From the NCBI GenBank assembly GCA_944367045.1, contig CALVWI010000003.1, positions 1 to 64,000 on the forward strand: DNA of 64,000 nt. Direction: 5' to 3'. Below, in pieces: positions 19,901 to 42,564 of the stretch. The notes under the pieces are model-generated. The model did not search any database, was not told the DNA's origin, and saw only the letters and a list, made by a program, of their open reading frames with translations. Source of the stretch: an uncultured Clostridia bacterium. Lineage in GTDB: Bacteria > Bacillota > Clostridia > Christensenellales > Borkfalkiaceae. Position 1 is the stretch's first letter; each line of letters begins with the position of its first letter. The translations under genes and the position numbers were made by a program.

Positions 19901-22900
19901 TACGCTCGGTTCGGATGAAAATGGCCGCATCAAGGCTCTCGGCGTTGAGGCGGGTATCGACGGCAGCGGTCTCTATTCCGTCGACCTTACGGCAGACCTC
20001 ACCCTCTGCAACCGCGGGGGCGAGTGGGACAAAAACGAGAACGGCGGTTTCAAGTCCGACATCACCGAGGACATGGAGGCCGTGCTCACCTCGCGCATGG
20101 AAGAGGCGCTTGCCGAAATGCAGGCGAACGGCTGGAAGGACGAGGCGGGGAATGCGGCATATCTCGAGGGCAAGAGCAGGACGCTCACCTACTACGCCGC
20201 GGGGAATGAGCTCAAGGAGCAGGAGATCATGGTGGATGCTTCGGGCGCTCCCATGGGCGAGGTCGAATATCCCGAACTCGACGAATCCCTTCAGCTCCCC
20301 GGCTACACCCTGCAATGGCCTGAAAGTATCCCCGAGGACGGGCAGATCTACGCGCAGTATGTGCCCAACGTCTACAAGCTCACCTTTGAGAGCGACCGCC
20401 CCGCCGAGGGCTGGACGGAGACGGACGGCAAGTGGCAGCTCGCGCTCGACTATACCTACAACGAAACCTTCTCTCTTCCCTTCGCCTCGGATGAGAGAAT
20501 GAAGCTCGTGGGCTTCACCGACGACGAGGGCAACTTCTACGCGGCATCGGAGGACCTTACCCGGGTGCTCTCCGACAGGACATTGACCGCCGTGTGGGAG
20601 GAGATCGACTACACCGTCACTTACATGGACGGCGAGAGGGTGCTCGGCACGCAGACCGCGCACTACGGCGACGAACTTCTCTATCCCGAAGCGGAGAAAG
20701 CGGGCTACCGCTTTGTAGGCTGGGAGCAGAGCGGCACGGTCACGGGCGATATGACGGTCAACGCCGTCTTTGAGGCGCTCACCTTCCGCGTGACGCTTGA
20801 AAGCGAGTTTCCGCTCGACGGCTTTGAAGAGATGGACGGCGTTTGGAAGAAGGTCATCGACTTCACCTACGACAGCACGGTCGCTCTCCCGAACGGCGTG
20901 CGCTATGAGGGCCGCATTTTGCGCGGTTTCAAGGCGGGCGATGTGACGGCGGCGGAGACGCTCCCCAACGTCCTCGAAGACACCGTCTTTACGGCAGTTT
21001 GGGAACTGCTCGGCTATGACGTCACCTTCATGGCGGACGGGGAAGTCGTCGCGGTGCGCAACCTGCACTACGGCGAGAGCATTTCGCCAGCAGACCTTCC
21101 CGTCATTCCCGAAAAGACCGGTTACACGGCAGTTTGGGCGGGTGCGGAGAACGGCTATACCCACCTGACGGAGGAGAATGCGGTCATCAACGCCGTCTAT
21201 ACCCCTGAGACCTATACCGTGACGCTCGTAAGTTCGCTCCCTTACGACGGCTTCGTTGAAAATGGCGGCCGCTATGAGCGCACCGTTCTCTACACCTACG
21301 GAACGACGCCCATTGCGCTCGAGGCGCTTGCCGATGTTCCCGGATATTGGTTCAAGGGCTTCTACACGGGCGAGAACGGCACGGGCGAACAGGTGACGGA
21401 GATCGATGTCATTGGCGATACCGCATACTATGTCTATTGGCAGGACAACACCGTCACCGTACGTCTCTATTCCGACCGCGCCTTTGCGGGCGCGCAAAAG
21501 GATGCCGAGGGGTACTATGTCGAGCGCTCCTTCAACGATACTTACACGCTTGAACAGCTCCCCGAACAGACGGGGTACAAGCAGCTCGGCTGGTGGGCAG
21601 AGACGGAGGGCGGCTATACGCCCGTCGACGATGTCCTCGCCTTCCACGGGCAGAACAACGTGCGCATCTGGGCGGTGTGGATGCAGGAGATCGAGATCGA
21701 GATCACGGAGTTCTCTGTGAATGTGACGGACGTGCTCGTCAATTACATCACCTACAATATTCTCGGCACTTCCTCGGGCGGCACCATCTTCGGAACGATG
21801 GGAAGGAACATCATTTCCGCCGCGTCGACAAAGGAAGTTCAGTATGTCGTCTATCGCGACGGAAAGCGTGATACCCTCTCGGGCGGCGATTCCGAGTTCA
21901 TCGAGGACGGAAAATTCGGGAAGCGCAGCATGATGTGCGGCAATTCGGGTTCGACTTGGAACACGGCGCCCTACGGCGGTGCGAGGGTCACGCACACCTT
22001 CACCTATACGGACGCAGACGGCGTGGAGCGCTCCATTTCGACGAGCGACGAGGCGACCATTTCGCTCGAGAGCTTTACCCTCGTCTTTTGCGATGAGGGA
22101 GGGAATGAGCTGGAGCGCATGACGGTGCGCGGCTCCTACGGTACCCCGCTGACGCTCGGCGACCTCTCTCTTCCCGTCGTGCCCGAAAAGCCCGGCTATT
22201 CGGGCATCTGGACCCTTGGCGAGAGCGATGTCATCGACTCGGGTAAGAGAGCAAACGCCTCGACTACCGACGACATTATTCCCGACCTCGTGCTTTCGCA
22301 CACCCTCGACGTAAAGCCCGTCTATACGCCGAAGAGCTTCCCTGTGACGCTCACGGCGCAGGACGATGTCAAGATCGACGGCTGGGTGGGGGAGACGTAC
22401 GAGACGGAGCTCATATTCGGTCAGACCATCGAATTTACGCTGAGCGGCAGCGTGTTGGAGACCTATACCGTCGGCCTTAAGAACAGCGTGACGCTTCCCA
22501 AACTTCCCGAAGGTGCGTACTGGAGCGACATCGAAGAGACGGGGAACGGCATCCGCATCGTTGCGGTGAAGAATCCCGACAAAGTGACGCTCTACGACGG
22601 CTTTGACGGCAATGTTCCTGTTGAATTCGACAGCGACTATACGCTTCCCGTGTATGAGCGGGAGGGATACACCTTCCTCGGCTGGTGGGGGAAGAGCGGC
22701 GAGAGCTGGCAGAAAGTTGAAGCGCTCTCCTACTCGGGCGACGGAACGGAGTATGAGCTCTACGCCCTCTGGGTGAAGGCAGACTTGAATCCAGGCCGTA
22801 AAAGTTACGTATTTTATTATGAATATAGTCCAAGCTGTACGATTGAAGTCATTTTTGCAGCTTGTGAAAATGGAGAACCGCAAGATTATACCATATCGGC

Positions 22901-29160: not shown

Positions 29161-29189
29161 TTGACAGAATGAGATAACATTGTTATAAT
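29161..29189 (+). promoter_or_regulatory. Consensus promoter of operon 1 (ABC pair 3)
   Basis: TTGACA at 29161-29166, exactly 17 bp, TATAAT at 29184-29189. Such a perfect match implies strong expression when not repressed; the surrounding palindrome supports repression. Confidence 0.9.
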
Positions 29190-29201
29190 AACGATGTTAT
29201 C
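29173..29201 (+). promoter_or_regulatory. 29-bp operator palindrome over the -10 box
   Basis: Left arm GATAACATTGTTAT (29173-29186), one central base, right arm ATAACGATGTTATC (29188-29201), with one mismatch. It can also be read as two tandem 13-bp boxes of the form ATAACA-T-TGTTAT. That 6-1-6 layout recalls Fur/PerR family boxes, but the bases are not a textbook match. Confidence 0.75.
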
Positions 29202-29255
29202 ATGAATATGATAAGAAAAACAAGGGGCAGAAAGCCCCGTTTCTTCAGGCAGTAG

Positions 29256-29271
29256 GTTCGCATAAGCGAAC
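29256..29271 (+). promoter_or_regulatory. GTTCGC-N4-GCGAAC palindrome, operon 1 site 1
   Basis: GTTCGCATAAGCGAAC, exact arms. It lies downstream of the predicted transcript start, thus within the leader. A short GGGGC/GCCCC hairpin sits just upstream at 29224-29238. Confidence 0.85.
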
Positions 29272-29288
29272 TATTCTTTCGGCATACG

Positions 29289-29304
29289 GTTCGCAATTGC
29301 GAAC
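29289..29304 (+). promoter_or_regulatory. GTTCGC-N4-GCGAAC palindrome, operon 1 site 2
   Basis: GTTCGCAATTGCGAAC, a perfect 16-bp palindrome starting 33 bp after site 1 and ending 7 bp before the AGGAGG of the first ABC gene. Confidence 0.87.
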
Positions 29305-29322: not shown

Positions 29323-31110
29323 ATGCAAAAAGCAAAACAACAGAGCGCGCTCTCCGTCCTCATGGACTATGCGGGGCGGAGAAGGGTGCTCACCTACCTC
29401 TCGTGGGTGCTGTCGGCGGTGTCGGCGCTCATTGCGCTTGCGCCCTTCATCTTCGTCTGGCTCATCGTGCGGGAAGTGCTCTCGGCGGACGGCAACTTTG
29501 CCGCGGTGCAGGGGGAGCTCGCCCTCTACGGCTGGTGGGCGGTGGGGAGCGCTCTCATCTCCATGCTCATCTACTTTGCGGCACTCATGTGCTCGCACGT
29601 CGCGGCGTTCCGCGTGGCGTCCAATATGCGCAAGAGGACGATGCGCCATCTCGCGACGCTCCCCGTCGGTTTCATGTCGAGCTTAGGCAGCGGCAGGGTG
29701 CGCCGCATCGTCAACGAGTCGAGCGGGGCGACGGAGACCTACCTTGCCCATCAGCTGCCCGACATGGCGGGCGCCTTTGCAACGCCCGTCGGCATGCTCG
29801 TGCTCTTATTCGTCTTTGACTGGCGGTTGGGGCTTCTTAGCCTCATCCCGACGCTCCTCGGCTTTATCATCATGGCGAAGATGACGGGGAAGAGCATGGC
29901 GGAGAAGATGAAGGAGTACCAGAACTCTTTGGAGCGCATGAACAACGAGGCGGTGGAGTATGTCCGCGGCGTGCCCGTCGTCAAGACATTCGGTCAGACC
30001 GTGTTCTCCTTCAAGCGCTTCAAGGGCTCCATCGACGAGTACCATAAGTGGGTGGTGGCCTACACCAAGAGCCTCATGTGGCCGATGGTCGCCTTCACGA
30101 CTGCCGTCAACTGCGTGTTCGTGCCCCTCATCATCGCGGGGCTGTGCTTCACGGCGGGCGGCGTCGATTCGACCTTCCTTCTCAATCTCATCTTCTACAT
30201 CATCTTCACGCCCATCATCTCGGTGACGCTCATGCGCGTCATGTTCATGAGCGAGAACAACATGATCGTGAACGACGCGCTCTCCCGCATCGACTCGCTG
30301 CTCTCTATCAAGCCGCTCGAAGTGCCCGGTTCGCCCGCTTCCCCTCGGGATAATTCCGTCCGCTTTGAAAACGTCACATTCGCCTATGACGGCGCGGAAC
30401 GCAACGCCCTCGACGGCATCTCGATGGACATCGGCGCGGGGGAGACGGTGGCGCTCGTCGGCCCGTCGGGAGGCGGCAAGACGACCGCGGCGGGACTCAT
30501 CGCCCGCTTCTGGGATACCAAGTCGGGTGCAGTACAGCTCGGCGGAGTCAACGTGAAGGACATCGCCAAAGAGCAGCTCAACGATACCGTTGCCTATGTC
30601 TTTCAGGACAGTCACCTTCTCAAGACGTCCATCTTTGAGAACGTGCGCATGGGGCGGCCCTCGGCGACGAGGGCGGAGGTCATGGCGGCCCTTCACGATG
30701 CGCAGTGCGACGACATCCTCCAAAAATTCCCCGAGGGCGCGGACACCGTCATCGGGGCGAAGGGGGTGTACCTCTCGGGCGGCGAGCAGCAGCGCATCGC
30801 CATCGCGCGCGTCATGCTGAAGAACGCGTCCGTGCTCGTCCTTGACGAGGCGACCGCGTTCGCCGATCCCGAAAACGAGGCCGCCGTGCAGCGCGCATTT
30901 GAGCGGCTCAAGGCGGGGAGGACGGTCATCATGATCGCCCACCGCCTCACCACCGTGCAGAATGCCGACAAGATCTACGTTTTGAAGGACGGCAAAGTTG
31001 CCGAGCAGGGCACGCACGGCGAACTCATGCAAAAGAAGGGCCTCTACAATGAAATGTACGAGGAATACAGAACGTCTATCTCTTGGAAAGTCGGAGGTGC
31101 AGCATGCTGA
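29323..31110 (+). CDS. ABC transporter half-molecule, YbtP/IrtA-like (pair 3)
   Basis: 595-residue exporter-fold ABC protein, six membrane helices then the ATPase: Walker A VGPSGGGKTT, signature LSGGEQQR, Walker B LDEATAFADPENE with the catalytic Glu. The ATAFADPENE variant and the pairing with a second complete half-transporter recall YbtP/YbtQ and IrtA/IrtB, exporter-shaped proteins that import ferric siderophores. No siderophore-reductase domain is attached. AGGAGG precedes the ATG. The leader holds two GTTCGC palindromes, shared with the flavodoxin/ZIP and ECF operons. Metallophore import is inferred from that context; drug export cannot be excluded. Confidence 0.85.
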   Translation: MQKAKQQSALSVLMDYAGRRRVLTYLSWVLSAVSALIALAPFIFVWLIVREVLSADGNFAAVQGELALYGWWAVGSALISMLIYFAALMCSHVAAFRVASNMRKRTMRHLATLPVGFMSSLGSGRVRRIVNESSGATETYLAHQLPDMAGAFATPVGMLVLLFVFDWRLGLLSLIPTLLGFIIMAKMTGKSMAEKMKEYQNSLERMNNEAVEYVRGVPVVKTFGQTVFSFKRFKGSIDEYHKWVVAYTKSLMWPMVAFTTAVNCVFVPLIIAGLCFTAGGVDSTFLLNLIFYIIFTPIISVTLMRVMFMSENNMIVNDALSRIDSLLSIKPLEVPGSPASPRDNSVRFENVTFAYDGAERNALDGISMDIGAGETVALVGPSGGGKTTAAGLIARFWDTKSGAVQLGGVNVKDIAKEQLNDTVAYVFQDSHLLKTSIFENVRMGRPSATRAEVMAALHDAQCDDILQKFPEGADTVIGAKGVYLSGGEQQRIAIARVMLKNASVLVLDEATAFADPENEAAVQRAFERLKAGRTVIMIAHRLTTVQNADKIYVLKDGKVAEQGTHGELMQKKGLYNEMYEEYRTSISWKVGGAAC

Positions 31111-32834
31111 ACTATCTCATGAAACGCTATGCGCTCTCGCGGCAGGGGGCGAAGGATCTCGTCATTGCGACCATCTCCTGCGTCATTCACAACATCACGC
31201 TCATGCTGCCCGTGTCGCTCCTTTACTTGCTCGTGAGCGACCTTCTCTCGGGCGGCGTGCCGCAGAACCACCTCTGGATCTACATCGCCGGCATGATCGC
31301 CGCGACGCTGCTCATCCTCATCTCCTACCGCTGGGTCTACAGCGCGACGTACTACGCGACGTATAAGGAGAGTTCGGTGCGCCGCATCGCGCTCGCGGAG
31401 AAACTTCGGAAGCTCCCGCTCTCCTTCTTCGGCAAGCGCGACCTTTCCGACCTCACCACGACCATCATGGCGGACTGCACGAAGCTCGAGCAGGCCTTCT
31501 CGCACTGGATGCCCGAGTTCTTCGGCTCGATGATCTCCACCTGCATCATCGCCGTGTGTCTCTTCGTCTTCGACTGGCGCATGGCGCTCGCGGCGCTCTG
31601 GGTGCTGCCCGTGTCGCTGCTCATCGTCGCGCTCTCGGGGAGGGTGCAGAACTGGTTCACACGCCGTCAGACGGAGGCCAAACTCGCCGTTGCGGACGGC
31701 ATTCAGGAGTGCCTCGAGACTATGCGCGACTTAAAGGCCAACAATGCAGAGGGGAAGTATCTCGACGGCCTCGACAAGAAGATCGACGTGCAGGAGGGGC
31801 GCATGATCGCCTCCGAGCTGGGCGCGGCGCTCTTTGTGGTGCCCGCAGGAATGCTCTTGAAGCTCGGCATCGGCACGGTGGCGCTCGTCGGCGGCCTGCT
31901 GCTCGCGAACGGCACGCTCTCCGTGCTCACCTTCTTCATGTATCTTCTCGTCGTCTCGCGCCTCTATGACCCCTTGAGTTCGTCCCTTCAGAACCTCGCG
32001 GCCATCATCTCGACCAACATTCCCATCGAGCGCATGAACGAGATCGAGGAGTACCCCGTGCAGCCGGGCACGGACGAGCTCACCATGAACGGCAGCGACA
32101 TCGTGTTCGACAACGTGAGCTTTTCCTACAACACGGGCGAACAGGTGCTCAAAAACGTCTCCTTCACGGCCAAGCAGGGGCAGGTGACGGCGCTCATCGG
32201 GCCCTCGGGCGGCGGCAAGAGTACGGCAGCCAAGCTCGCGGCGCGCTTCTGGGATGCGGACAGCGGCACGATCACACTGGACGGCACGGACGTCACGACC
32301 GTCGACCCCGAAAAGCTGCTCTCGGCGTATTCCATCGTCTTCCAGGACGTCACGCTCTTCAACAACACCGTTATGGAGAATATCCGCATCGGCAGACAGG
32401 GCGCAACGGACGAGGAAGTGCTCCAAGCTGCCAGAGAGGCGCAGTGCGACGAGTTCGCCCTCAAACTCCCCGACGGCTATAATACGATGATCGGAGAGAA
32501 CGGCTCGGCGCTCTCAGGCGGGGAGCGGCAACGCATCTCCATCGCCCGCGCGCTCCTCAAAGATTCGCCCGTCATTCTTCTCGATGAGGCGACGGCCTCC
32601 CTCGACGCGGAGAACGAGACGCGCATCCAGGAGGCCATCTCCCGCCTCGTACGCGGCAAGACGGTGCTCATCATTGCCCACCGCATGCGCACGGTGGAGG
32701 GGGCGGATAAGCTCGTCCTTCTGAAAGACGGCAGAGTGGAGGAGATGGGAACTCCCAAGGAGCTCCTTGAAAAGGGCGGCCTCTACGCGAAGATGTGCGC
32801 GCTTCAGGAACAGTCCGGCGCGTGGAAGCTGTAA
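31104..32834 (+). CDS. ABC transporter half-molecule, YbtQ/IrtB-like (pair 3)
   Basis: 576-residue partner of the previous gene with Walker A GPSGGGKST, signature LSGGERQR and Walker B LLDEATASLDAENE; both sites of this pair look catalytically intact. The ATG at 31104 is preferred to 31083 because GGAGG at 31093-31097 is well placed; it overlaps the previous stop by 7 nt. Last gene of operon 1: the next promoter follows 20 bp after the stop, and no clear terminator is visible between. Confidence 0.85.
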   Translation: MLNYLMKRYALSRQGAKDLVIATISCVIHNITLMLPVSLLYLLVSDLLSGGVPQNHLWIYIAGMIAATLLILISYRWVYSATYYATYKESSVRRIALAEKLRKLPLSFFGKRDLSDLTTTIMADCTKLEQAFSHWMPEFFGSMISTCIIAVCLFVFDWRMALAALWVLPVSLLIVALSGRVQNWFTRRQTEAKLAVADGIQECLETMRDLKANNAEGKYLDGLDKKIDVQEGRMIASELGAALFVVPAGMLLKLGIGTVALVGGLLLANGTLSVLTFFMYLLVVSRLYDPLSSSLQNLAAIISTNIPIERMNEIEEYPVQPGTDELTMNGSDIVFDNVSFSYNTGEQVLKNVSFTAKQGQVTALIGPSGGGKSTAAKLAARFWDADSGTITLDGTDVTTVDPEKLLSAYSIVFQDVTLFNNTVMENIRIGRQGATDEEVLQAAREAQCDEFALKLPDGYNTMIGENGSALSGGERQRISIARALLKDSPVILLDEATASLDAENETRIQEAISRLVRGKTVLIIAHRMRTVEGADKLVLLKDGRVEEMGTPKELLEKGGLYAKMCALQEQSGAWKL

Positions 32835-32853: not shown

Positions 32854-32882
32854 TTGACAAACGGCGGCGATATGTGTATAAT
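32854..32882 (+). promoter_or_regulatory. Consensus promoter of operon 2
   Basis: TTGACA at 32854-32859, 17-bp spacer, TATAAT at 32877-32882. GATAACA follows directly, the same half-site as in the operon 1 operator. Confidence 0.9.
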
Positions 32883-32890
32883 GATAACAG

Positions 32891-32906
32891 GTTCGCTTAG
32901 GCGAAC
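32891..32906 (+). promoter_or_regulatory. GTTCGC-N4-GCGAAC palindrome, operon 2 site 1
   Basis: GTTCGCTTAGGCGAAC; the symmetry extends outward (AACAG before, TTGTT after, one mismatch). It begins 9 bp after the -10 box, so it covers the transcript start. Confidence 0.87.
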
Positions 32907-32923: not shown

Positions 32924-32939
32924 GTTCGCATATGCGAAC
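32924..32939 (+). promoter_or_regulatory. GTTCGC-N4-GCGAAC palindrome, operon 2 site 2
   Basis: GTTCGCATATGCGAAC, a perfect 16-bp palindrome starting 33 bp after site 1 and ending 4-5 bp before AAAGGAGG. Confidence 0.88.
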
Positions 32940-32954
32940 TATAAAGGAGGACAC

Positions 32955-33491
32955 ATGAGCAGAACGGAATATGCGATCGGAAGGTACTGCGGCGTGACGT
33001 TCGCGGGGCTCAAGATCGCCAGCCTCGTCAATGTCGAGAAGGGGGAGGAGGACGTCCTCGAAGAGCTCTCCGCGCGCTTTGCGGGCCGTGGGTTCAGCTT
33101 CCGTCTCCTTCGCGAGGAGAGAGGCCGCCTGCTCGTGTACGTCTGTCACCGCGAGCGGCTGGAGGAATACCTCGCCCGCCCCGAGATCAAGGGTTTTTTG
33201 CAGCTGTTCGGCTACGAGTTTGCCTCGGCAGACGAGGCGCTCGATCAGCTCCAAGCGCGCATGACGGGGGAGTTCCCGCACGAGATCGGCATCTTCCTCG
33301 GCTATCCGCTGTGCGACGTGCGCGGGTTCCTCAACGATCCCGAGGGCTGCCTTCTCTGCGGCGCATGGAAGGTATATGAGAATGCGGACGAGGCCGCTCG
33401 CACCTTCGAGCGCTTCCGCCGCTGCTCGGCGTGCATCTGCCGCCATATGGACATGGGGCGGTCGCTCACGCAAATCTTTAATGTAGGATAA
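32955..33491 (+). CDS. DUF3793 family protein
   Basis: 178-residue cytoplasmic protein of the DUF3793 type, function unknown. Visible are a C-terminal Cys-rich end (RRCSACICRHMDMGRSL) and the central FPHEIGIFLGYPLCDVRGF with an internal LLCGAWKVY. Family members in Clostridia are often next to flavodoxin or iron-uptake genes, as here. The ATG at 32955 follows AAAGGAGG. It is the first gene of operon 2, controlled by two palindromes. A regulatory or redox role around metal status is only inference. Confidence 0.8.
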   Translation: MSRTEYAIGRYCGVTFAGLKIASLVNVEKGEEDVLEELSARFAGRGFSFRLLREERGRLLVYVCHRERLEEYLARPEIKGFLQLFGYEFASADEALDQLQARMTGEFPHEIGIFLGYPLCDVRGFLNDPEGCLLCGAWKVYENADEAARTFERFRRCSACICRHMDMGRSLTQIFNVG

Positions 33492-33519: not shown

Positions 33520-33939
33520 ATGAAAGTTTCTATCGTCTATTGGTCGGGTACGGGCAATACGGAGATGATGGCGAACGCCGTCAAAGAGGGCGCCGAGAGC
33601 GCGGGCGCGGAGGTCGAACTTCTCTCCGTTGCGGAGGCGTCTGCCGATGTCTTAGACAGCGACGTCCTTCTCTTCGGCTGCCCCGCGATGGGCTCGGAGG
33701 AGCTCGAGGACAGCGAATTCGAACCCTTCTTCTCGTCCGTCGAGAGTTCGCTCAAGGGCAAGAAGGTGGGGCTGTTCGGCTCGTATGACTGGGGCGACGG
33801 CGAATGGATGCGCATCTGGCAGGAGCGCGTGGAAGCCGCGGGCGGCGTGATGGTCGCGGACGGCCTCATCTGCAACAATACGCCCGATGACGACGCTTTG
33901 GCCGAATGCCGCGAACTCGGCGAGAAGGCCGCGAAGTGA
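33520..33939 (+). CDS. Flavodoxin
   Basis: Small FMN electron carrier of 139 residues. The phosphate loop is WSGTGNTE (about 8-15), followed by the second FMN loop CPAMGSEELED and the third in GSYDWGDGEW. Length and motifs fit short-chain flavodoxins. Flavodoxins commonly replace ferredoxin when iron is short, which agrees with the suspected metal-response operon. GGGAGG precedes the ATG; the next gene starts 4 bp after the stop. Confidence 0.95.
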   Translation: MKVSIVYWSGTGNTEMMANAVKEGAESAGAEVELLSVAEASADVLDSDVLLFGCPAMGSEELEDSEFEPFFSSVESSLKGKKVGLFGSYDWGDGEWMRIWQERVEAAGGVMVADGLICNNTPDDDALAECRELGEKAAK

Positions 33940-33943
33940 CGGT

Positions 33944-34198
33944 ATGCAGAAGATCACGTTAGAGGTCGAGGGCATGCGCTGCGGCATGTGCGAGACGCAC
34001 GTCAACGACGTCGTCCGCCGCGTGGAGGGCGTCAAAAAGGTCAATTCCTCTCACATGAAGGGGAGGACGGAGGTCATCGCCGAGGACGGCACCGACGTTA
34101 CTGCCATCCGCGAGGCGATCGCCTCGCAGGGCTACGGCGTGGGGGAGGTCACGAGCGTTCCTTACGAAAAGCACGGCCTCTTCTCGCGCAAAAAATAG
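33944..34198 (+). CDS. Heavy-metal-associated (HMA) domain protein, CopZ-like
   Basis: 84 residues consisting of a single HMA ferredoxin-like domain: GMRCGMCETHV holds the metal-binding CxxC, and VNDVVRRVEGVKKVNSS follows. It could carry copper or another soft metal ion. The ATG at 33944, close behind the flavodoxin stop, is preferred over an in-frame ATG at 33887 within flavodoxin. Unlike most CopZ proteins it has no CopA ATPase neighbour here. Confidence 0.88.
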   Translation: MQKITLEVEGMRCGMCETHVNDVVRRVEGVKKVNSSHMKGRTEVIAEDGTDVTAIREAIASQGYGVGEVTSVPYEKHGLFSRKK

Positions 34199-34835: not shown

Positions 34836-35621
34836 TTGACGGCGCTGACGGTCATCGGATTTACCATCATCTTTGTCGCCACGACGGCGGGTGCGGCGCT
34901 CGTGTTCGCCTTCCGCGGCGAGATGTCGGGCAAGCTGAATACGCTCTTTTTGGGGTTCGCCTCGGGCGTGATGGTTGCGGCGTCTGTCTGGTCGCTGCTC
35001 ATTCCGTCCCTCGACGGCGCAGCCGAGTGCTGGGGCGATTGGAGCTTTGTGCCCGCCGTCCTCGGGTTTCTGTCGGGCGGGGGATTCCTCGTGCTCATCG
35101 ATAAGCTCGTGCCGCACCTCCACAGGGGCACGAACGAGGAGGAGGGCCCCAAGAACCACCTCAAGAAGCCCGCAAAGCTCTTTCTCGCGGTGACCATCCA
35201 CAACATTCCCGAGGGGCTTGCCGTGGGGTTCGCGTTCGGCGCGGCGGCGGCAGCGGGGGAGTACGGCGCGTTCGTCTCGGCGCTCGGCCTTGCGATCGGC
35301 ATGGCCATTCAGAACTTTCCCGAGGGCGCGGCGGTGTCCCTCCCCATGAAGGCGGCGACGGGCAGCCGCACGAAGGCCTTTTTATACGGCATGGGCAGCG
35401 GGGCGGTCGAGCCGCTCTTTGCGGTCGTCGGGTACTTCCTCGCGGCAAATCTCACGGCCGCGCAGCCGTGGTTTCTCGCCTTTGCGGCGGGTGCGATGAT
35501 CTTTGTCGTCGTCGAGGACCTCATTCCCGACGCGCACCTTTCCGAGCACCCGCACTTCGGTACGTGGGGCGCGATGGTGGGCTTTGCCGTGATGATGGCG
35601 CTCGACGTCGCCCTCGGCTGA
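34836..35621 (+). CDS. ZIP family metal transporter
   Basis: 261-residue membrane protein that imports divalent metals (zinc, iron or manganese). Metal-site motifs are HNIPEGLAVGF in helix IV and QNFPEGAAVS in helix V, both ZIP hallmarks; about eight membrane segments; a His/Glu-containing loop (HLHRGTNEEEG) between helices III and IV. The start is TTG at 34836 with AAGGAG ten bases before. Last gene of operon 2, followed by a terminator. Under the shared palindromes it supports metal uptake as the theme of the regulon. Confidence 0.9.
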   Translation: MTALTVIGFTIIFVATTAGAALVFAFRGEMSGKLNTLFLGFASGVMVAASVWSLLIPSLDGAAECWGDWSFVPAVLGFLSGGGFLVLIDKLVPHLHRGTNEEEGPKNHLKKPAKLFLAVTIHNIPEGLAVGFAFGAAAAAGEYGAFVSALGLAIGMAIQNFPEGAAVSLPMKAATGSRTKAFLYGMGSGAVEPLFAVVGYFLAANLTAAQPWFLAFAAGAMIFVVVEDLIPDAHLSEHPHFGTWGAMVGFAVMMALDVALG

Positions 35622-35751: not shown

Positions 35752-35767
35752 GTTCGCGTGTGCGAAC
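35752..35767 (+). promoter_or_regulatory. GTTCGC palindrome A, upstream of the operon 3 promoter
   Basis: GTTCGCGTGTGCGAAC, exact arms. It lies before the -35 box, so it cannot be part of the transcript from that promoter. Confidence 0.85.
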
Positions 35768-35780
35768 GGGCGTTTTTTGT

Positions 35781-35809
35781 TTGACTTATTCCACGCGAAC
35801 GATTATACT
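35781..35809 (+). promoter_or_regulatory. Promoter of operon 3 with a half-site in its spacer
   Basis: TTGACT at 35781-35786, 17-bp spacer, TATACT at 35804-35809. The spacer contains GCGAAC (35795-35800), exactly where the right arm of a palindrome at 33-bp spacing would fall. Confidence 0.78.
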
Positions 35810-35817
35810 ATACGATG

Positions 35818-35944
35818 GTTCGCAATAGAGAACGCTCTATGGCGTTTTTTAAGGCTGTAAAGTTCGCTGTTGCGTACTAATTTTTACCCCGTCCGTTCGC
35901 ATCTGCGTACCTGTCGCTCTGCCCGTATGTTCGCAAATGCGTAC
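35818..35944 (+). promoter_or_regulatory. Four phased GTTCGC palindromes (B-E) in the operon 3 leader
   Basis: B 35818 GTTCGCAATAGAGAAC, C 35862 GTTCGCTGTTGCGTAC, D 35895 GTTCGCATCTGCGTAC, E 35929 GTTCGCAAATGCGTAC. Each has one changed base in the right arm; C, D and E share the same change (GCGTAC). Start-to-start steps from A through the half-site to E are 33, 33, 44, 33 and 34 bp. B begins 9 bp after the -10 box; E ends 4 bp before the AAGGAAG ribosome site. Together with A this explains the 339-bp stretch between the ZIP gene and the next coding region. Confidence 0.85.
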
Positions 35945-35960
35945 CCGAAGGAAGGAAGAA

Positions 35961-36338
35961 GTGAAGAAACAGGAAAAGACGCCCAAGGAGCTGAGAGCCT
36001 GGGAAAAGGAAAAACAGCTCATCCCCGTGATGATCCGAAAGTACTGTCACGGCAAGCACAAGACGAAGGGGGAGGAGTGTGAGGACTGCAAAGCGCTCAC
36101 CGAGTATGCCCTCTTTCGGCTCGAGAAGTGCCCGTTCAAGGTCAACAAGAAGTTCTGTTCGTTCTGCAAGATCCATTGCTATAAGCCGGATATGCGCGAG
36201 AAGATCAAGGACGTCATGCGCTGGGCGGGCCCGAGAATGCTGTTTACCCATCCCATCTTTGCCATCAAGCACGTTGTGCAGATGGTAAGCTACAAGCAAA
36301 AGCTCAAAAAGGACAAGAAGGCAAAGGCAAATGTTTGA
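35961..36338 (+). CDS. YgbA-like (nitrous oxide-stimulated promoter) family protein
   Basis: 125 residues with the Cys pattern C-x7-C-x2-C (CHGKHKTKGEECEDC) and C-x8-C-x2-C-x3-C (CPFKVNKKFCSFCKIHC), then YKPDMREKIKDVMRWAGPRM. This matches the YgbA/NO-stimulated family, induced by nitric oxide in enterobacteria and possibly an iron-sulfur or metal-binding protein. The GTG at 35961 with AAGGAAG is preferred to an ATG at 35937 that lies inside palindrome E. First gene of operon 3; it overlaps the next gene by 8 nt. Confidence 0.82.
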   Translation: MKKQEKTPKELRAWEKEKQLIPVMIRKYCHGKHKTKGEECEDCKALTEYALFRLEKCPFKVNKKFCSFCKIHCYKPDMREKIKDVMRWAGPRMLFTHPIFAIKHVVQMVSYKQKLKKDKKAKANV

Positions 36339-38079
36339 TAAAGACCTCATAAAACTCATCGGCGGAAACAAAAAGTACGTCGTCTACACCGTGCTTCTGA
36401 TGGTGCTCGGCATGCTCGCCAATATCGGCATCACGGCGAGCGTCTGTTGGGCGGTCTCCCTCCTCATCGAAGGCGCAGAGGCTCTCAACTACGTCTATCC
36501 CGCGGTGACGGCGGTCATCTCGCTTATCGTCCGCTACATCGCAAGCCGCGCGACGGGCAATCTCAAGGATATGCTCGGCCGCAAGGTCAAGAAGGACTTG
36601 AGAAAGCGCACTTACGATAAAATTCTGCGCCTCGGCGTGCGCTCGACGGACGGCATGAGCATGGCAGGGCTCACGCAGGTCTCCCTCGAGGGCATCGAGC
36701 AGCTCGATCTCTACTACTCGACCTATCTCCCGCAGTTCTTCTTTGCGATGATCGCGCCCATTTTGCTCTTCTGCATCTGTGTGGGCATCGATTGGCGCAC
36801 GTCGCTCGTGCTTTTGGCGTGCGTGCCGCTCATTCCCGTGTCCATCGTCGCGGTCTCCAAGTACGCGAAGAAGATCTTCGCGAAGTATTGGGGCAAGTAC
36901 ACCTCAATGGGCGACGCCTTCCTCGACAGCGTGCAGGGCCTCAAGGAGCTGAAGATCTTCAAGGCGGACGCGGCGCGCCACAAGAAGATGAATCAAAGCG
37001 CGGAGGAATTCCGCAAGATCACGATGAAGGTGCTCGTCATGCAGCTTGCGAGCACGACCATCATGGATCTCGTCGCCTACGGCGGTGCGGGCGCGGGCAT
37101 TGCGCTTGCCGTCGTCGGCCTCATGAACGGCTGGCTTGCTCCCGCTGCGGCGCTCTTTTTGGTACTCGTCGCGGTGGAGTTCTTCCTGCCGCTTCGCTCG
37201 TTGGGCTCGGCGTTCCACGTCGCGATGAACGGCGCGAGCGCGGGCAGAAAGATCATCTCCCTTTTGAATATGCCCGATCCCGTGTGGGGGAGCGAGGAAG
37301 TGCAGGGCACCGAGCTCAAACTTGAGAACGTCACCTTCTCCTACGACGGCAAGCGGGACGTTTTGAAGGACGTCTCCATGACCTTCCCCGAACGCGGCAT
37401 GACCGCCATCGTCGGCGAGAGCGGCTGCGGGAAGTCCACCGTCGTCAATATGCTCATCGGCGCGTACCGCCCCAAGGAGGGCAGCGTCACCGTCGGCGGG
37501 AAGTCCTTGGAGAGCGTCACGCGCGAGTCCTACTATTCGCACCTTGCGAGCGTCTCCTACAACACCTATCTCTTCAACGACAGCGTGCGCGCCAACTTCG
37601 AGCTCGCAAAAAAGAATGTGAGCGACGAGGAGATCTGGGCGGCGCTTGAGAAGGTCAACCTTGCGGAGTTCATCAGGGAGAACGGCGGGCTTGAAAAGGT
37701 CATCACCGAGGACGCAAACAACGTCTCGGGCGGACAGAAGCAGCGGCTGGCGCTCGCCGTCAACCTCGTCGCCGATAAAGATATCTACGTCTTTGACGAG
37801 GCGACGAGCAACATCGACATCGAGTCGGAGGCCATCATCATGCAAAACGTCAAGGCGATGAGCGAAAACAAGTCGGTCATCGTCATCTCGCACCGCCTCG
37901 CGAACGTCGTTCCCGCGGACAACATCTATTATATGGAGGAGGGCGAGCTCAGGGAGAGCGGCTCTCACGAGGCCCTCATGCAGGCGAAGGGCGGCTATCA
38001 GAAGCTTTATACAGCGCAGAAGCAGCTCGAAGAGGGGTATATGCAGGCGGCAGGGGTCGCCGCGGAGGTGAACGCATGA
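36331..38079 (+). CDS. ABC transporter half-molecule (pair 4, siderophore-import-like)
   Basis: 582-residue exporter-fold ABC protein: membrane domain about 15-310, Walker A GESGCGKST, signature VSGGQKQR, Walker B VFDEATSNIDIE. Resembles the half-transporters often labelled CydD-like or YbtP/Q-like in Bacillota. In this operon a second half-transporter and an ECF S-T-A set follow, the same kinds of genes as in the equibactin siderophore locus of Streptococcus equi (recalled from the literature). Ferric-siderophore or other metallophore uptake is inferred; no substrate-binding protein is present. Confidence 0.85.
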   Translation: MFDKDLIKLIGGNKKYVVYTVLLMVLGMLANIGITASVCWAVSLLIEGAEALNYVYPAVTAVISLIVRYIASRATGNLKDMLGRKVKKDLRKRTYDKILRLGVRSTDGMSMAGLTQVSLEGIEQLDLYYSTYLPQFFFAMIAPILLFCICVGIDWRTSLVLLACVPLIPVSIVAVSKYAKKIFAKYWGKYTSMGDAFLDSVQGLKELKIFKADAARHKKMNQSAEEFRKITMKVLVMQLASTTIMDLVAYGGAGAGIALAVVGLMNGWLAPAAALFLVLVAVEFFLPLRSLGSAFHVAMNGASAGRKIISLLNMPDPVWGSEEVQGTELKLENVTFSYDGKRDVLKDVSMTFPERGMTAIVGESGCGKSTVVNMLIGAYRPKEGSVTVGGKSLESVTRESYYSHLASVSYNTYLFNDSVRANFELAKKNVSDEEIWAALEKVNLAEFIRENGGLEKVITEDANNVSGGQKQRLALAVNLVADKDIYVFDEATSNIDIESEAIIMQNVKAMSENKSVIVISHRLANVVPADNIYYMEEGELRESGSHEALMQAKGGYQKLYTAQKQLEEGYMQAAGVAAEVNA

Positions 38080-39773
38080 AAGAGAAACTTCGCAGAAGCG
38101 GCATCAAGATCATGGCGAGCCTCATCGTGCTCTTGGGTTCGCTCTCGTATATCATGGTCCTCGCCGTGCTCAACGGCTCGTTGGGATTTGTCGCCGCGAT
38201 GGGCGTCACCGTGTTCGGCGCGACGGGCGTCGCCAAGGCATTGGGACTTCTCGGTTTATGCGCGGAAATTCCGCTCTCATGGGGGCTCATCATCGGCCTT
38301 GCGGTGGGCTGCGGCGTCGTGCGCGGGGGACTGAGATACCTCGAGCAGTATAGTAACCACTTCATCGCCTTCAAACTTCTCGCGGTGCTGCGCGATAAGA
38401 TCTTCGGTGCGCTCCGCATCCTCTGCCCCGCCAAGCTCGAGAGCAAGCAGAAGGGCAGCATCATTGCGATGATCACCTCGGACATCGAGACGCTCGAAGT
38501 GTTCTACGCGCACACCATTTCGCCCATCTGCATCGCAGTTCTCGTCTCGCTCGCGGTGTTCCTGTTCGTCGGGTTCGTGTCGTCGTGGTACTTAGCGCTC
38601 GTCGCGCTCCTCGGGTACCTCGTCATCGGCATTGTGGTGCCGCTGATCTCGTCAAAAGCGCTCAAGGAGTCGGGCGTCAACTACCGCAGGGAGTTCGCCT
38701 CCTTCAACGCCTACTTCCTCGACAGCATCAAGGGCATCAAGGACATCGTCTTGAACAATGCCGAAAGGGAGCGTGAGGGGGAGGTCGACCGCCGTTCGGA
38801 CATTCTCTTAAAGGAGACCAAGAAGATGAAGCGGGGCATCACGAAGGCCTCTTCGGCGACCGAACTTTTGGTCTCGCTCTTCATTGCGCTCTCGCTTGCG
38901 GTAGGCGTGCTGCTCGTGCACTTCGGCCTTCTCGACCTCGGAAAGATGCTCATCGGCGTCGTCGCCATCTTCGGGAGCTTTGGTCCGGTGCTCGCCGTCT
39001 CAGCGCTGCCCGGGAACCTGACGCAGACCTTCGCGAGCGGCGATCGCGTCCTCAATCTCCTCGAAGAGAAGCCCGCCGTCACCCCCGTGAAGAACGGCAA
39101 GACCTTCGAATACAGCGACCTCAAGGTGGACGAGCTCTCCTTCTCCTATGAGAAGGACGCGCCCGTCCTCAAAGACGTGTGCATGCACGCCGAGAAGGGC
39201 GAGATCATCGGCATCGTGGGTGAAAGCGGCTGCGGAAAATCGACCTTCTTAAAGCTCCTCCTTCGCTTTTGGGAGAAGGACAGGGGCAGCATCGACTACA
39301 ACGGCATCGACGTCGACAACATCGACTCCGATAACCTTCTCGACAACGTGACGATGGTCTCGCAGACCACATATCTCTTCGACGAGAGCATCGAGGATAA
39401 CCTCCGCATCGCAAAGCCCGACGCGACGCAGGAAGAGCTGGAAACCGCCTGCAAGATGGCGTCCGTGCACGACTTCATCATGACGCTCCCCGAGGGCTAC
39501 AAGACGCAGGTCGGCGCGATGGGGGACAACCTCTCGGCGGGAGAAAAGCAAAGGATCGGCCTCGCGCGGGCGTTCCTGAAGGGCAGTCAGCTCATCCTTC
39601 TCGACGAGCCGACGAGCAACGTCGATTCCATCAACGAGGGCATGATCTTGAAGTCGCTCTTGGAGCAAAAGAGCAAGAAGAGCATCATCTTGGTATCGCA
39701 CCGCGAGTCGACCATGGCGATCGCCGACCGTATCTACCATGTGGATGGCGGCATCATGCAAGAGGTGAAATAA
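38076..39773 (+). CDS. ABC transporter half-molecule, partner (pair 4)
   Basis: 565-residue exporter-fold ABC protein with Walker A GESGCGKST, signature LSAGEKQR and Walker B LLDEPTSNVDSIN. GGAGGTG precedes its ATG, which overlaps the previous stop by ATGA, so the two are made together and probably dimerise. Both ATP sites look intact. It is followed with no gap by the ECF substrate component, which ties pair 4 and the ECF transporter into one unit. Confidence 0.85.
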   Translation: MKEKLRRSGIKIMASLIVLLGSLSYIMVLAVLNGSLGFVAAMGVTVFGATGVAKALGLLGLCAEIPLSWGLIIGLAVGCGVVRGGLRYLEQYSNHFIAFKLLAVLRDKIFGALRILCPAKLESKQKGSIIAMITSDIETLEVFYAHTISPICIAVLVSLAVFLFVGFVSSWYLALVALLGYLVIGIVVPLISSKALKESGVNYRREFASFNAYFLDSIKGIKDIVLNNAEREREGEVDRRSDILLKETKKMKRGITKASSATELLVSLFIALSLAVGVLLVHFGLLDLGKMLIGVVAIFGSFGPVLAVSALPGNLTQTFASGDRVLNLLEEKPAVTPVKNGKTFEYSDLKVDELSFSYEKDAPVLKDVCMHAEKGEIIGIVGESGCGKSTFLKLLLRFWEKDRGSIDYNGIDVDNIDSDNLLDNVTMVSQTTYLFDESIEDNLRIAKPDATQEELETACKMASVHDFIMTLPEGYKTQVGAMGDNLSAGEKQRIGLARAFLKGSQLILLDEPTSNVDSINEGMILKSLLEQKSKKSIILVSHRESTMAIADRIYHVDGGIMQEVK

Positions 39774-40478
39774 GTGAGTTACGAACAGCAAAGCGCCGAC
39801 GTTGCGGCGCTCATCGAAAACACGAGGGAGATCGAGATGGAGCTCGCTCCCAAGCGGGCGGCACTTCAGGAGAAGCTCAAAAAGCGGGAGGCGCGCGAGA
39901 AGGACGAGAGCAAGATGTTCCGCCGCTTCAAGATCAAGGACATCGTGTTCCTCGCCATCATCACGGCGTGCACGCTCCTGACGAGCGCCATCATGCCGCT
40001 CTTAATTCACGTTCCCGTGTTCGGCATCATTCAGCTCGGTCTCGGGCTGCAGTTCTCCATTTTCCCCGTCATCGGCCTCATGAAGGTCAGAAAGGCTGGC
40101 TCCATGACCATCATGGGCGTCTTTATCGCGCTCTTCCTCGTCATGATGTTCCCGCCGATGGCGCTCATCGCCGTCTGTGCCGTGGTGGTGGAGCTTCTCG
40201 TCTTCCTCTTCTTCCGCAGCTACAAGAATGACTGGGCATGCGTGATGGCGGGGACGCTGTATATGCCCCTTACCGTGCCCCTTCTTTATCTCTATTATAA
40301 CGTCAATTACACCGTGACGGGCGCGGAGAACGAGGCCGTGTCGATGTTTCTCGGGGGCACCGATCCGTGGGTGATCGTCGGCATGACGGTTGCCATTTTA
40401 GCGCTGTGCTTTGTGGGGTCCGTTGTGGGCATGCTGATTTCCAGAGAACTTAAAAAGGCGGGAGTACTCAAGAAATGA
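39774..40478 (+). CDS. ECF transporter S component, MptD/Trep_Strep type
   Basis: 234-residue membrane protein with a charged 45-residue N-terminus (EIEMELAPKRAALQEKLKKR, coiled-coil-like) and five to six membrane helices. Pattern FKIKDIVFLAIITACTLLTS and PVFGIIQLGLGLQFSIFPV fit the MptD/Trep_Strep family of putative ECF substrate-binding subunits; substrate unknown. The start is GTG at 39774, one base after the previous stop. T and A components follow by 4-nt overlaps, which supports the ECF assignment. Confidence 0.82.
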   Translation: MSYEQQSADVAALIENTREIEMELAPKRAALQEKLKKREAREKDESKMFRRFKIKDIVFLAIITACTLLTSAIMPLLIHVPVFGIIQLGLGLQFSIFPVIGLMKVRKAGSMTIMGVFIALFLVMMFPPMALIAVCAVVVELLVFLFFRSYKNDWACVMAGTLYMPLTVPLLYLYYNVNYTVTGAENEAVSMFLGGTDPWVIVGMTVAILALCFVGSVVGMLISRELKKAGVLKK

Positions 40479-41152
40479 GCTTTTTCAAATTCAAGTCAAA
40501 ACTCTATCCGCTCGTCGCCATCTTCGGCTCACTCTTTCTCATCATCTTCGGGCTCGTCCTGGCGAGGAACGAAAACCTCCCGTGGTATCTTTTAGGGGCG
40601 TTCGTGTGGCTGTGTCTCTTCGGCTGCGCGAAGGGCTGCCTGAAGGTCCTCATTCCCTTCATCATCTTCGGCGGGGCGTTTGCGGGCATCGCTTATGCCT
40701 CCGCGGGCGGGGATACGGCCGCCGCCGTCTCCATGCTCAACCGCTTCGGCGCGCTCTTCTTGGGAGCGGCGCTTTCGATGTCCGTCGCCGCCGTCCGCAT
40801 GACAAGAAGCCTCTCTGAGGTACATATGCCGCGGGCAATTACCCTCGGCATGCTCATCTCGATGTCCTTCGTGCCCATGCTGAAGGGGGAGGTCGGGCGC
40901 GTGCGCGAGGCGATGAGGACGCGCGGTGCGGGGAGCGTCCTCAACCCCAAAATTCTCTACCGCGCCTTCCTCGTGCCCTTCGTCATGCGGCTCGTCAATA
41001 TTTCGGATACGCTCGCGCTCTCCGTCGAGACGCGCGGGTTTACCCTCGGCCCTTCCCTCTATACCATCTACAAAAAGGAATATCCCGCGCTTTCGGACGT
41101 GCTGTTCTTGCTCGGTCTTCTTGCAGGCGCGGTGCTGGTGATCGTCTTATGA
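40475..41152 (+). CDS. ECF transporter T component (EcfT-like)
   Basis: 225-residue transmembrane coupling protein. About five helices and the Ala-Arg-Gly signature region of EcfT: REAMRTRGAGS and the second ETRGFT, which contact the ATPases. It bridges the S component and the ATPase subunit. Overlaps both neighbours by 4 nt. Confidence 0.88.
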   Translation: MSFFKFKSKLYPLVAIFGSLFLIIFGLVLARNENLPWYLLGAFVWLCLFGCAKGCLKVLIPFIIFGGAFAGIAYASAGGDTAAAVSMLNRFGALFLGAALSMSVAAVRMTRSLSEVHMPRAITLGMLISMSFVPMLKGEVGRVREAMRTRGAGSVLNPKILYRAFLVPFVMRLVNISDTLALSVETRGFTLGPSLYTIYKKEYPALSDVLFLLGLLAGAVLVIVL

Positions 41153-42564
41153 GTGCAATCGAGTTGAAAGACGTGAGTTTTTCCTACGACGGAAAGACGA
41201 ACATCCTGGAAAATACGAACTTTACCGCCGAATACGGCGAGGTGACGCTGCTTTCGGGCCATTCGGGCGAGGGGAAGAGTACGCTCATGTACATCATCTC
41301 GGGCATCATTCCCAACGTCAACGACGGCAAGCTCGCGGGCGACGTTCTCATCGCGGGCGAGGACATTAAGGGGAAGAAGCTCGGCTACATCTGCCGCAAG
41401 GTGGGCGTCGTGCTGCAGAACGCCGACGAGCAGATCATTCAGAAGATCGTCGAGGACGAAGTCGCCTTTGCGTGCGAGAACCTCGCCTTTCCGCCCGACA
41501 AAATGCAGGAGCAGATCGACATCGTCTGCCGCCTCATGAAATTGGAGAAGCATTGGAAGTGCCGCACGCTCTCGGGCGGGCAGAAACAGCGGCTCATCAC
41601 GGCCTCGACGCTTGCGATGGGGCAGAAGATCATCATTTTGGACGAGCCGCTCGCCAACCTCGACAAGGACGGCGCCGCCATGCTGATGGGCACGCTGCGC
41701 TCCCTCGCGCAGGCGGGATACGCCGTGCTCGTCATCGAGCACCGCCTCGACATGGTGCTGCCCTTCGTCGATACCGTTTGGCACATCGGCGACAAGACGG
41801 TGAGAAAGGTGGAGGACAGGGCGGCGTACCTCAAGGCGCAGACCGCGAAAATTGCGGACAGCTGCCCCGAATTCAAGGGCGGGGAGCCGCTCTTCAAGCT
41901 CCAAAACGTCGCCTTCTCTGTCAAAAAGGAGCGGGATATCTTGAGGGACGTCACCCTCGACATTCCCAAGGGCGGGAGGACGGTGTTCCTCGGCGAGAAC
42001 GGCTGCGGCAAGACGACGCTCCTGCGCCTCATCGCCCGCCTCTACAAGCCGACGGGCGGCAGCATCGAACAGACGCTCGACGAAAAGCTCGGGCAAAAGC
42101 CAAGGGGGAGCAGGGCGTGGTACAAGAAGGTGGGGGTCGTCTATCAGAACCCCGACTACCAGCTCTTCATGCCGACGGTGAAGAAGGAGCTTGAGTTCGG
42201 CGCGGTCTCGCCCGAGTATGCCATGCACATCGCGGAGCTCTTCGGCATCGAGCATCTCCTTGCGCGGCACCCGCAGTCGCTCTCGGAGGGGCAGAAGCGG
42301 CGGGTGTCCATCGCGGCAGTCGTCGCGTGCAGGCCTCAAGTGCTCCTTCTTGACGAGCCGACGGTGGGGCAGGACTACGAGGGCCTCTGCCGCATGGTGG
42401 AGATCCTCAATGAGCTGCACGAAGAGACGGGCAACACGATGATCACCATCACGCACGATGTGCGCTGCGCCGAGGCGCTGTGCGACAGGGCGTATCTCCT
42501 CGCGGACGGCACGCTGCAAAGGAGCGGCGGCAAGGAGCTCGTGCGCGAATACTTTTCGGCATAA
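41149..42564 (+). CDS. ECF transporter ATPase, two fused ABC domains
   Basis: 471 residues with two complete ATPase domains, equivalent to EcfA1 and EcfA2 in one chain. First: Walker A GHSGEGKST, QNADEQI, signature LSGGQKQR, Walker B ILDEPLANLD. Second: Walker A GENGCGKTT, QNPDYQLF, signature LSEGQKRR, Walker B LLDEPTVGQD. The Q-N-x-D-x-Q loops are typical of ECF ATPases. Last gene of operon 3; a terminator follows at once. Fused forms are known, though separate genes are commoner. Confidence 0.92.
   Translation: MSAIELKDVSFSYDGKTNILENTNFTAEYGEVTLLSGHSGEGKSTLMYIISGIIPNVNDGKLAGDVLIAGEDIKGKKLGYICRKVGVVLQNADEQIIQKIVEDEVAFACENLAFPPDKMQEQIDIVCRLMKLEKHWKCRTLSGGQKQRLITASTLAMGQKIIILDEPLANLDKDGAAMLMGTLRSLAQAGYAVLVIEHRLDMVLPFVDTVWHIGDKTVRKVEDRAAYLKAQTAKIADSCPEFKGGEPLFKLQNVAFSVKKERDILRDVTLDIPKGGRTVFLGENGCGKTTLLRLIARLYKPTGGSIEQTLDEKLGQKPRGSRAWYKKVGVVYQNPDYQLFMPTVKKELEFGAVSPEYAMHIAELFGIEHLLARHPQSLSEGQKRRVSIAAVVACRPQVLLLDEPTVGQDYEGLCRMVEILNELHEETGNTMITITHDVRCAEALCDRAYLLADGTLQRSGGKELVREYFSA

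Follow-up and report, generated by a model that had tools for sequence, protein, structure and literature searches.

Rows of spaced palindromes at iron-uptake promoters of uncultured gut Clostridia, with a DtxR-family protein as candidate regulator

In an uncultured Clostridia bacterium of the family Borkfalkiaceae, an operon is preceded by a row of similar palindromes at strikingly regular steps. What binds such a row, and what sets the distance between its members? We followed the row through the stretch of DNA that holds it (the window; 64,000 nucleotides), the 1.89-Mb draft genome (G000) to which it belongs, and related and unrelated bacteria. Our reading is that the palindromes are likely to be operators of a DtxR-family repressor, most likely activated by Fe(II), for which a 124-aa protein encoded outside the window is the candidate.

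The array and its counterparts in the genome

The array in front of the ygbA-ABC-ECF operon (Table 1) has one exact GTTCGC-N4-GCGAAC palindrome at 35752 (GTTCGCGTGTGCGAAC) and four sites with one changed base, at 35818 (GTTCGCAATAGAGAAC), 35862 (GTTCGCTGTTGCGTAC), 35895 (GTTCGCATCTGCGTAC) and 35929 (GTTCGCAAATGCGTAC), all seen both by direct reading and in a motif scan. By reading, a sixth position at 35785 (CTTATTCCACGCGAAC) has the right half of the palindrome only and lies inside the 17-bp promoter spacer between TTGACT and TATACT. The steps between the six positions are 33, 33, 44, 33 and 34 bp. By reading, GTG at 35961, preceded by GGAAGGAAG, is the likely start of the first gene, so the last site finishes just 5' of the ribosome binding site.

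Nine sites with at most one mismatch occur in the window, against a mean of 0.45 and a maximum of 2 in 40 Markov shuffles, and a local segment of 261 bp holds five against a maximum of 1 in 3000 shuffles. Enrichment is mild at looser settings, both in the window at three mismatches (77 versus 62.7) and in the whole genome at up to two (210 copies versus 137 of the reversed pattern), so the signal resides in the near-exact copies. All six exact copies in the genome sit at four promoters, those of two ABC-exporter operons, a DUF3793-flavodoxin-ZIP operon and feoA-feoA-feoB. Two of these promoters carry exact pairs in the window with a 33-bp step each, 29256/29289 and 32891/32924; the latter is followed by genes for DUF3793, flavodoxin, an HMA protein, a GNAT-like frame (by reading only) and ZIP. 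The fourth cluster, on contig 4 (locus L005), has sites at 7340, 7415, 7456, 7497 and 7531 with 0, 1, 1, 1 and 2 mismatches, and precedes feoA-feoA-feoB (first FeoA by family scan, FeoB by reading). Seven single sites with one mismatch, whose centres are GC-rich, lie elsewhere in the genome. The predicted operators precede iron-uptake genes and overlap promoters, the pattern of an iron-responsive repressor regulon. The first-pass annotation, made from the window's letters, had given all six array positions, their steps and the half-site in the spacer correctly, but it had missed the two exact pairs and the feoAB array; the genome count it proposed returns exact copies that are far from randomly placed.

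Several neighbouring features were observed along the way. YgbA, a CydDC-like ABC pair and an apparently complete ECF set form one gene run 3' of the array (35937-42564), which suggests iron or haem chelate uptake. The near-palindrome over the -10 element of P1 (GATAACATTGTTATAATAACGATGTTATC) has one copy in the genome at up to three mismatches of its degenerate form, and the relatives L065 and L090 have a GTTCGC site in its place; it looks like the operator of a second, perhaps Fur-like, regulator. In the leader between P1 and its operator pair, GGGGC-AGAAA-GCCCC followed by TTTCTT (29224-29245) forms a possible attenuator-like hairpin. A 3031-aa open reading frame with long near-identical internal repeats (13998-23093) probably encodes, by reading only, a surface protein.

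Table 1. Features of the palindrome-bearing promoters and operons, and the candidate regulator. Positions are in the window unless a genome and contig are named.
Feature	Position	Strand	Basis or remark
Promoter P1, TTGACA-17-TATAAT	29161..29189	+	promoter search
Different near-palindrome, 29 bp, over P1 -10	29173..29201	.	single copy in genome
Exact site, leader of ABC pair 1	29256..29271	.	scan
Exact site, 33 bp further	29289..29304	.	scan
ABC exporter half 1	29323..31110	+	family scan
ABC exporter half 2	31104..32834	+	family scan; inferred start, listed ORF from 31083
Promoter P2, TTGACA-17-TATAAT	32854..32882	+	promoter search
Exact site at predicted P2 start	32891..32906	.	scan
Exact site, 33 bp further; ends 15 bp before DUF3793 start	32924..32939	.	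scan
DUF3793 protein	32955..33491	+	family scan
Flavodoxin	33520..33939	+	family scan
HMA metal-binding protein	33944..34198	+	family scan; inferred start, listed ORF from 33887
ZIP-family metal transporter	34836..35621	+	family scan
Operator site (predicted), exact, about 64 bp 5' of predicted start	35752..35767	.	scan; not in orthologous promoters
-35 element TTGACT	35781..35786	+	reading, promoter search
Right half-site only, promoter spacer	35785..35800	.	reading; not conserved, possibly chance
-10 element TATACT	35804..35809	+	reading, promoter search
Core operator site (predicted) at predicted transcription start, one mismatch	35818..35833	.	same base imperfect in four relatives
Operator site (predicted), right half GCGTAC	35862..35877	.	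same deviation in five relatives
Operator site (predicted), one mismatch	35895..35910	.	scan
Operator site (predicted) just 5' of ribosome binding site	35929..35944	.	reading and scan
YgbA_NO (PF11756), small Cys-rich protein	35961..36338	+	family scan; inferred start (scanned from 35937)
ABC exporter half, CydD-like	36331..38079	+	family match below cut-off
ABC exporter half, CydC-like	38076..39773	+	family match below cut-off
ECF S component, Trep_Strep/MptD-like	39774..40478	+	family scan; NCBIfam below cut-off
Putative ECF T component	40475..41152	+	reading and position
Putative double ECF ATPase	41149..42564	+	reading
DtxR-family protein, 124 aa, outside window	G000:C10:50985-51356	minus	profile search

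Spacing and placement of the sites in other genomes

A collection with one genome per species (84,980 species) was scanned for pairs of exact sites with a 24-54 bp step, and the 113 stretches obtained, some of which share one genome (L055 and L085 come from the same bin) so that array counts are not all independent, were divided by hand, from record names, into Clostridia-type and other taxa. Because the DNA is GC-rich, neighbouring genes were called by homology search. The Clostridia-type relatives include uncultured Clostridia, Christensenellaceae and Candidatus Gallimonas. Downstream of their arrays with a 32-36 bp step, an iron-regulon gene homologue is found in 50 of 56 cases (FeoB 24, FeoA 2, DUF3793 20, ABC1 2, ABC3 1, YgbA 1); the others are L049, L058, L071, L084, L118 and L130, and the arrays of L058, L071 and L084 lie less than 800 bases from the end of the locus. 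Clostridia arrays with other steps precede these gene types in 9 of 18 cases. The homology search placed the same types behind none of the 41 arrays in other taxa, and arrays of Treponema, Chloroflexi, Inquilinus and others had no reference-gene homologue in it. Uncultured gut Clostridia very probably use rows of such sites, usually 33 or 34 bases apart and beginning at the transcription start, to repress iron-uptake genes.

Two further sets of arrays were noticed in the collection. In other Clostridia, pairs or short arrays of the same palindrome at steps of 34-36 and 44 (L118:3616-3667, L130:5758-5878 and L114:1911-1970) adjoin genes whose products start MxYITVxxAAxKWGV; judged by eye, these would be an unrelated DNA-binding family and a second user of the palindrome. 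In Inquilinus genomes (for example L044, L045, L062, L081) exact pairs with a step of about 46 bp turn up at many positions, perhaps a dispersed repeat.

Exact pairs in Clostridia show one dominant interval. Within the 24-54 bp range, 57 of 83 pairs are spaced 33 or 34 bp, compared with 1 of 44 in other taxa, so the spacing peak that the first-pass annotation had asked for in relatives exists. That annotation had also held that all steps approximate multiples of 11 bp and place the sites on nearly the same face of the helix, and this rule fails: a 44-bp interval occurs once, and intervals off phase recur at feo promoters, where the upstream site mostly precedes its neighbour by 79-83 bp, or 7.5-7.9 turns of 10.5 bp (the distance is 75 bp in our own genome), and where, at four loci, a site at -54/-55 precedes the next by 57-58 bp. 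Whole helical turns do not describe all intervals, and since 33/34 bp alone is preferred across the 113 collection loci, we have set helical phase aside as a rule.

The same distribution bears on a weaker form of the idea, in which the regulator is the same and 33 bp reflects helical phasing or duplication of a repeat, with no required geometry. We think this unlikely, if worth keeping in mind. Intervals of 33, 44 and 54 bp each exceed a whole number of 10.5-bp turns by 1.5-2 bp, and within the scanned range 54 bp is second in frequency to 33/34 bp (7 of the 83; 47 bp has 2). However, 33/34 bp dwarfs the single 44-bp interval, and a 22-bp interval is absent among the 13 pairs of a family scan that allowed 21-51 bp. 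The spacers, compared by eye, are not conserved, which argues against recent duplication.

The sites are also tied to promoters. We examined 63 regions (59 collection loci with a target gene and 4 of our own genome) and found a sigma-70-type promoter in 61, with 48 scoring 12-13 of 13 points. With the transcription start placed, by convention, 12 bases downstream of the first -10 base, a site begins 0-5 bp after the predicted start in 56 of 61 promoters, where random anchors averaged 3.5 and never exceeded 10. The promoters without this core site are those of L061, L111 and L120, P1 of the window, and L005, whose site is at -4. Another site lies at +31 to +40 in 50 of 61. That every collection region has two sites is by construction, because regions were chosen for two exact sites; where the sites stand relative to the promoter is independent of that choice.

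Among 148 exact sites, A precedes 100 and T follows 88, which extends the palindrome to an 18-bp word, A-GTTCGC-N4-GCGAAC-T, and leaves 15 bp between words in 33-bp arrays. The change tolerated most often is at position 5 (C to A, or G to T on the other side), in 8 of 18 one-mismatch sites. Imperfection can itself be inherited. Five loci orthologous to the ygbA operon have a recognisable promoter (L057, L075, L063, L095, L139), and none was found in the orthologue loci L107 and L161. The +2 site departs from the motif at one shared base in four of these promoters (GGGAAC; GAGAAC in the window), L063 having only the left half there, and the second site reads GCGTAC in all five; because these deviations recur, the imperfect sites of this promoter are themselves conserved. 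The spacer half-site, which the first reading had counted as part of the array, and an upstream site like that at 35752 are absent from all five promoters, so the half-site may be chance.

A DtxR-family candidate

The genome encodes one DtxR-family protein above cut-off, the 124-aa candidate, which matches Fe_dep_repress with 36.5 bits (cut-off 26) and Fe_dep_repr_C with 46.9 bits (cut-off 27). A second PF01325 match, on contig C31, is below cut-off and its frame reads like a MarR protein; an Rrf2 regulator was considered and rejected, its only match being sub-threshold and in that same frame. Among solved relatives, E. coli MntR matches the candidate best (E 3.7e-10); DtxR, B. subtilis MntR and IdeR come next. 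The NCBIfam MntR models stay under their cut-offs, with 70 bits against 153 and 52 against 138. MntR is a short form without the third domain, and the candidate is alike: it ends at 124 aa, and the domain scan found the third, SH3-like domain missing. Its M12, C104, E107 and H108 align with M10, C102, E105 and H106 of DtxR, the iron set. In MntR the metal ligands are D8, E99, E102 and H103 (PMC4805248), and the alignment puts Met and Cys of the candidate where MntR has Asp8 and Glu99. Both Fe and Mn are bound by a member of the family that has Asp and Cys (PMC4805248); judged from the residues, Fe is most likely the metal here, and not Mn or both.

Genomes that have the regulator tend to have the motif. 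In a sample of 201 genomes of the family, at an orthologue cut-off of E<=1e-35, the exact motif occurs in 46 of 62 genomes with an orthologue and 23 of 139 without (Fisher 4e-15, a value that, like those below, overstates independence because the genomes share ancestry), while for the reversed control pattern the counts are 18 of 62 and 32 of 139 (p 0.38). Moving the cut-off to 1e-30 or 1e-40 gave p 5e-9 or 1e-8, respectively, and outside the candidate's own genus the association persists at 1e-35 (22/35 versus 21/137, p 7e-8). Two or more motif copies, again outside the genus, were found in 16 of 56 versus 3 of 116 genomes (p 1e-6); two or more copies of the reversed control were weakly associated too (7/56 versus 4/116, p 0.04), which hints at an effect of base composition.

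Exceptions fall on both sides. Sixteen of the 62 orthologue genomes are without the exact motif, among them G010, G109, G146, G150, G175 and G099, although G010 has degenerate arrays (L139). Conversely, 23 genomes have the motif and no close orthologue. Arrays without any DtxR-family match were seen in G135 (95% complete), G117 has arrays and only a C-terminal piece of a DtxR-family protein, G173, G178 and G070 have one or two exact motifs and no DtxR match, and G177 has one motif and a DtxR fragment; these six are draft genomes.

Gene neighbourhood adds to the association. Orthologues 77-80% identical to the candidate lie inside operons of L057, L075, L063 and L043 that carry the motif as their predicted control, and a 48% identical relative adjoins feoB in L061. 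Within 1.5 kb of the orthologue, ten of 30 loci centred on one (L138-L167) show a motif array or a homologue of an iron-regulon gene (L139, L140, L141, L142, L144, L160, L161, L164, L165 and L167, with L144 having a 38% ABC match only). The other 20, own genome copy included, have no such link. In our genome the regulator gene is on its own, and no site with up to two mismatches lies nearby.

The recognition helix is nearly invariant in this group: 34 of 35 aligned orthologous-group proteins (L061 included) have KSSVSR and L161 has KSSTSR, and the Met ligand position is likewise kept in 34 of 35, L061 having Asn. In 12 distant homologues (L168, L169, L178-L185, L187 and L188, several from genomes that also hold an orthologue) the helices read PAVTKA, AAVNKA, PAVQKA or VSVCHA, and Asp occupies the Met position in 11, with Met in L188. 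By our own alignment, R45 of the candidate presumably sits where B. subtilis MntR has Lys41, and E. coli MntR also has Lys at this position. Lys41 of MntR is described as touching half-site base pair 4 or 5. In the tolerated position-5 change, a keto group stays where it was.

It is improbable that a Fur-family protein, and not a DtxR-family protein, binds the sites. Fur regulons of Clostridia have the same kind of targets (feo, flavodoxin), genes that are typical for Fur; G000 encodes two Fur-family proteins, and P1 has its separate AT-rich palindrome. Yet both proteins score best, below cut-offs, against PerR models, and one of their genes adjoins a gene that reads like a rubredoxin-domain protein. 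The operator of those regulons is unlike GTTCGC-N4-GCGAAC, a GC-containing site that does not resemble a Fur box, and Fur belongs to a different protein family from DtxR.

A proposed mode of iron control

Operator arrays of metalloregulators are a known kind. B. subtilis MntR, as described in PMC11275975, is a DtxR-family protein whose dimer binds an 18-bp inverted repeat and uses several weak promoter sites; at mneP and mneS it forms an array of four dimers, and the structure on mneP shows them cooperating on weak 18-bp sites. Those sites are 1 bp apart (PMC11275975), a 19-bp step against 33-34 bp here, and MntR there binds Mn through Asp/Glu ligands and activates efflux, whereas our candidate has Met/Cys, the targets here are for iron uptake, and repression is expected from the site at +1. 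Wider spacing exists in the family, since the two MntR sites of E. coli mntP are more than 20 bp apart (PMC11275975). SloR of Streptococcus mutans, also of the DtxR family, represses cooperatively from three adjacent sites (as cited in PMC11275975), but it is Mn-responsive and its sites adjoin, unlike the spaced iron array here. DtxR and IdeR of Actinobacteria share the Met-Cys-Glu-His primary metal site and an iron regulon; they differ in length (226-233 aa in full-length solved forms versus 124 aa) and in their 19-bp box, on whose opposite faces two IdeR dimers sit (PMC8464063). The 15-bp gap between 18-bp words matches neither system, and the proposed complex at 33-34 bp would differ both from the contiguous 19-bp MntR array and from opposite-face DtxR/IdeR dimers.

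No earlier description of this operator and spacing was found. A search of titles and opening lines, outside subscription papers and operator databases, returned no literature on the motif or on a DtxR regulon in these bacteria, and Christensenellales with DtxR gave no match; PMC3672683, on a streptococcal iron-acquisition element, contains the term DtxR-like, and the sole match of a full-text search for DUF3793 concerns a fungus. The first-pass annotation did not recognise the motif as a named operator, and as to prior description this stands; a DtxR-family iron repressor can now be named as its candidate binder. The dimeric regulator that it proposed still fits the palindromes, and its hint of metal control agrees with the iron-gene targets and with a candidate that has iron ligands.

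We propose that when iron is plentiful, a repressor dimer carrying metal would occupy a site of about 18 bp where transcription from consensus promoters begins, with further dimers on sites 33-34 bp downstream and sometimes also upstream, and that RNA polymerase would be blocked at initiation and by a downstream roadblock. Iron shortage would clear the sites and allow expression of feoAB, the flavodoxin/DUF3793/ZIP operon and both ABC-exporter operons. The ygbA-ABC-ECF operon would be repressed only at higher iron, because the sites of its array are consistently imperfect. Repression is the most likely mechanism, given strong consensus promoters with a site on their first transcribed bases. 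More tentatively, and as a possibility we would not yet favour, the short DtxR-family iron sensor may form a higher-order complex with a fixed 33-34 bp repeat, nucleated at the transcription start and extended along the leader, with iron thresholds graded by the number and quality of sites. The 15-bp gap could be filled by a further dimer, bridged by coupling through DNA, or set in register by the polymerase.

Most sites fall in the predicted leader, the first often at its 5' end, and the last site lies 14-22 bp before the DUF3793 start in all 20 arrays of the DUF3793 class. They could thus work as hairpins in the mRNA, in 5'-end stability, translation control or binding of a protein to RNA, and each could fold as a 6-bp stem with a 4-base loop. 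Compensating changes keep the pairing in four of five two-mismatch sites, as a DNA dyad would too. This is very improbable, however: 25 of 61 promoters, 24 of them among the 35 feo promoters, have a site 50-85 bp upstream of the start, where it would be untranscribed from that promoter, and for this reason we rank an mRNA mechanism low. In addition, a stem pair is lost in the 18 one-mismatch sites, or becomes G-U in two of them, and the stem is conserved in sequence, beyond pairing alone, with a varying loop.

Runs of A and T flank the upstream feo site of L005 (7332-7365; AAAAAATAGTTCGC...GCGAACTATTTTT), an arrangement shared by many relatives; such palindromes may also act as terminators in either direction. 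A purely non-regulatory origin of the sites as dispersed REP-like repeats or terminator hairpins, for which these bidirectional-terminator-like flanks and the widely scattered Inquilinus pairs could be cited, is scarcely credible, as exact copies in G000 occur only at iron promoters and the promoter anchoring of the Clostridia arrays contradicts a random distribution.

DNA operators of a DtxR-family iron repressor thus remain the probable reading. It would supply an operator code for iron control across a large, mostly uncultured group of gut Clostridia, together with a list of targets and a candidate regulator, and it would link the recognition helix KSSVSR to a DNA word, which may be useful for predicting DtxR-family specificity. 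The uncharacterised DUF3793 family gains an iron context, and the arrays pose a structural question: why 33 bp.
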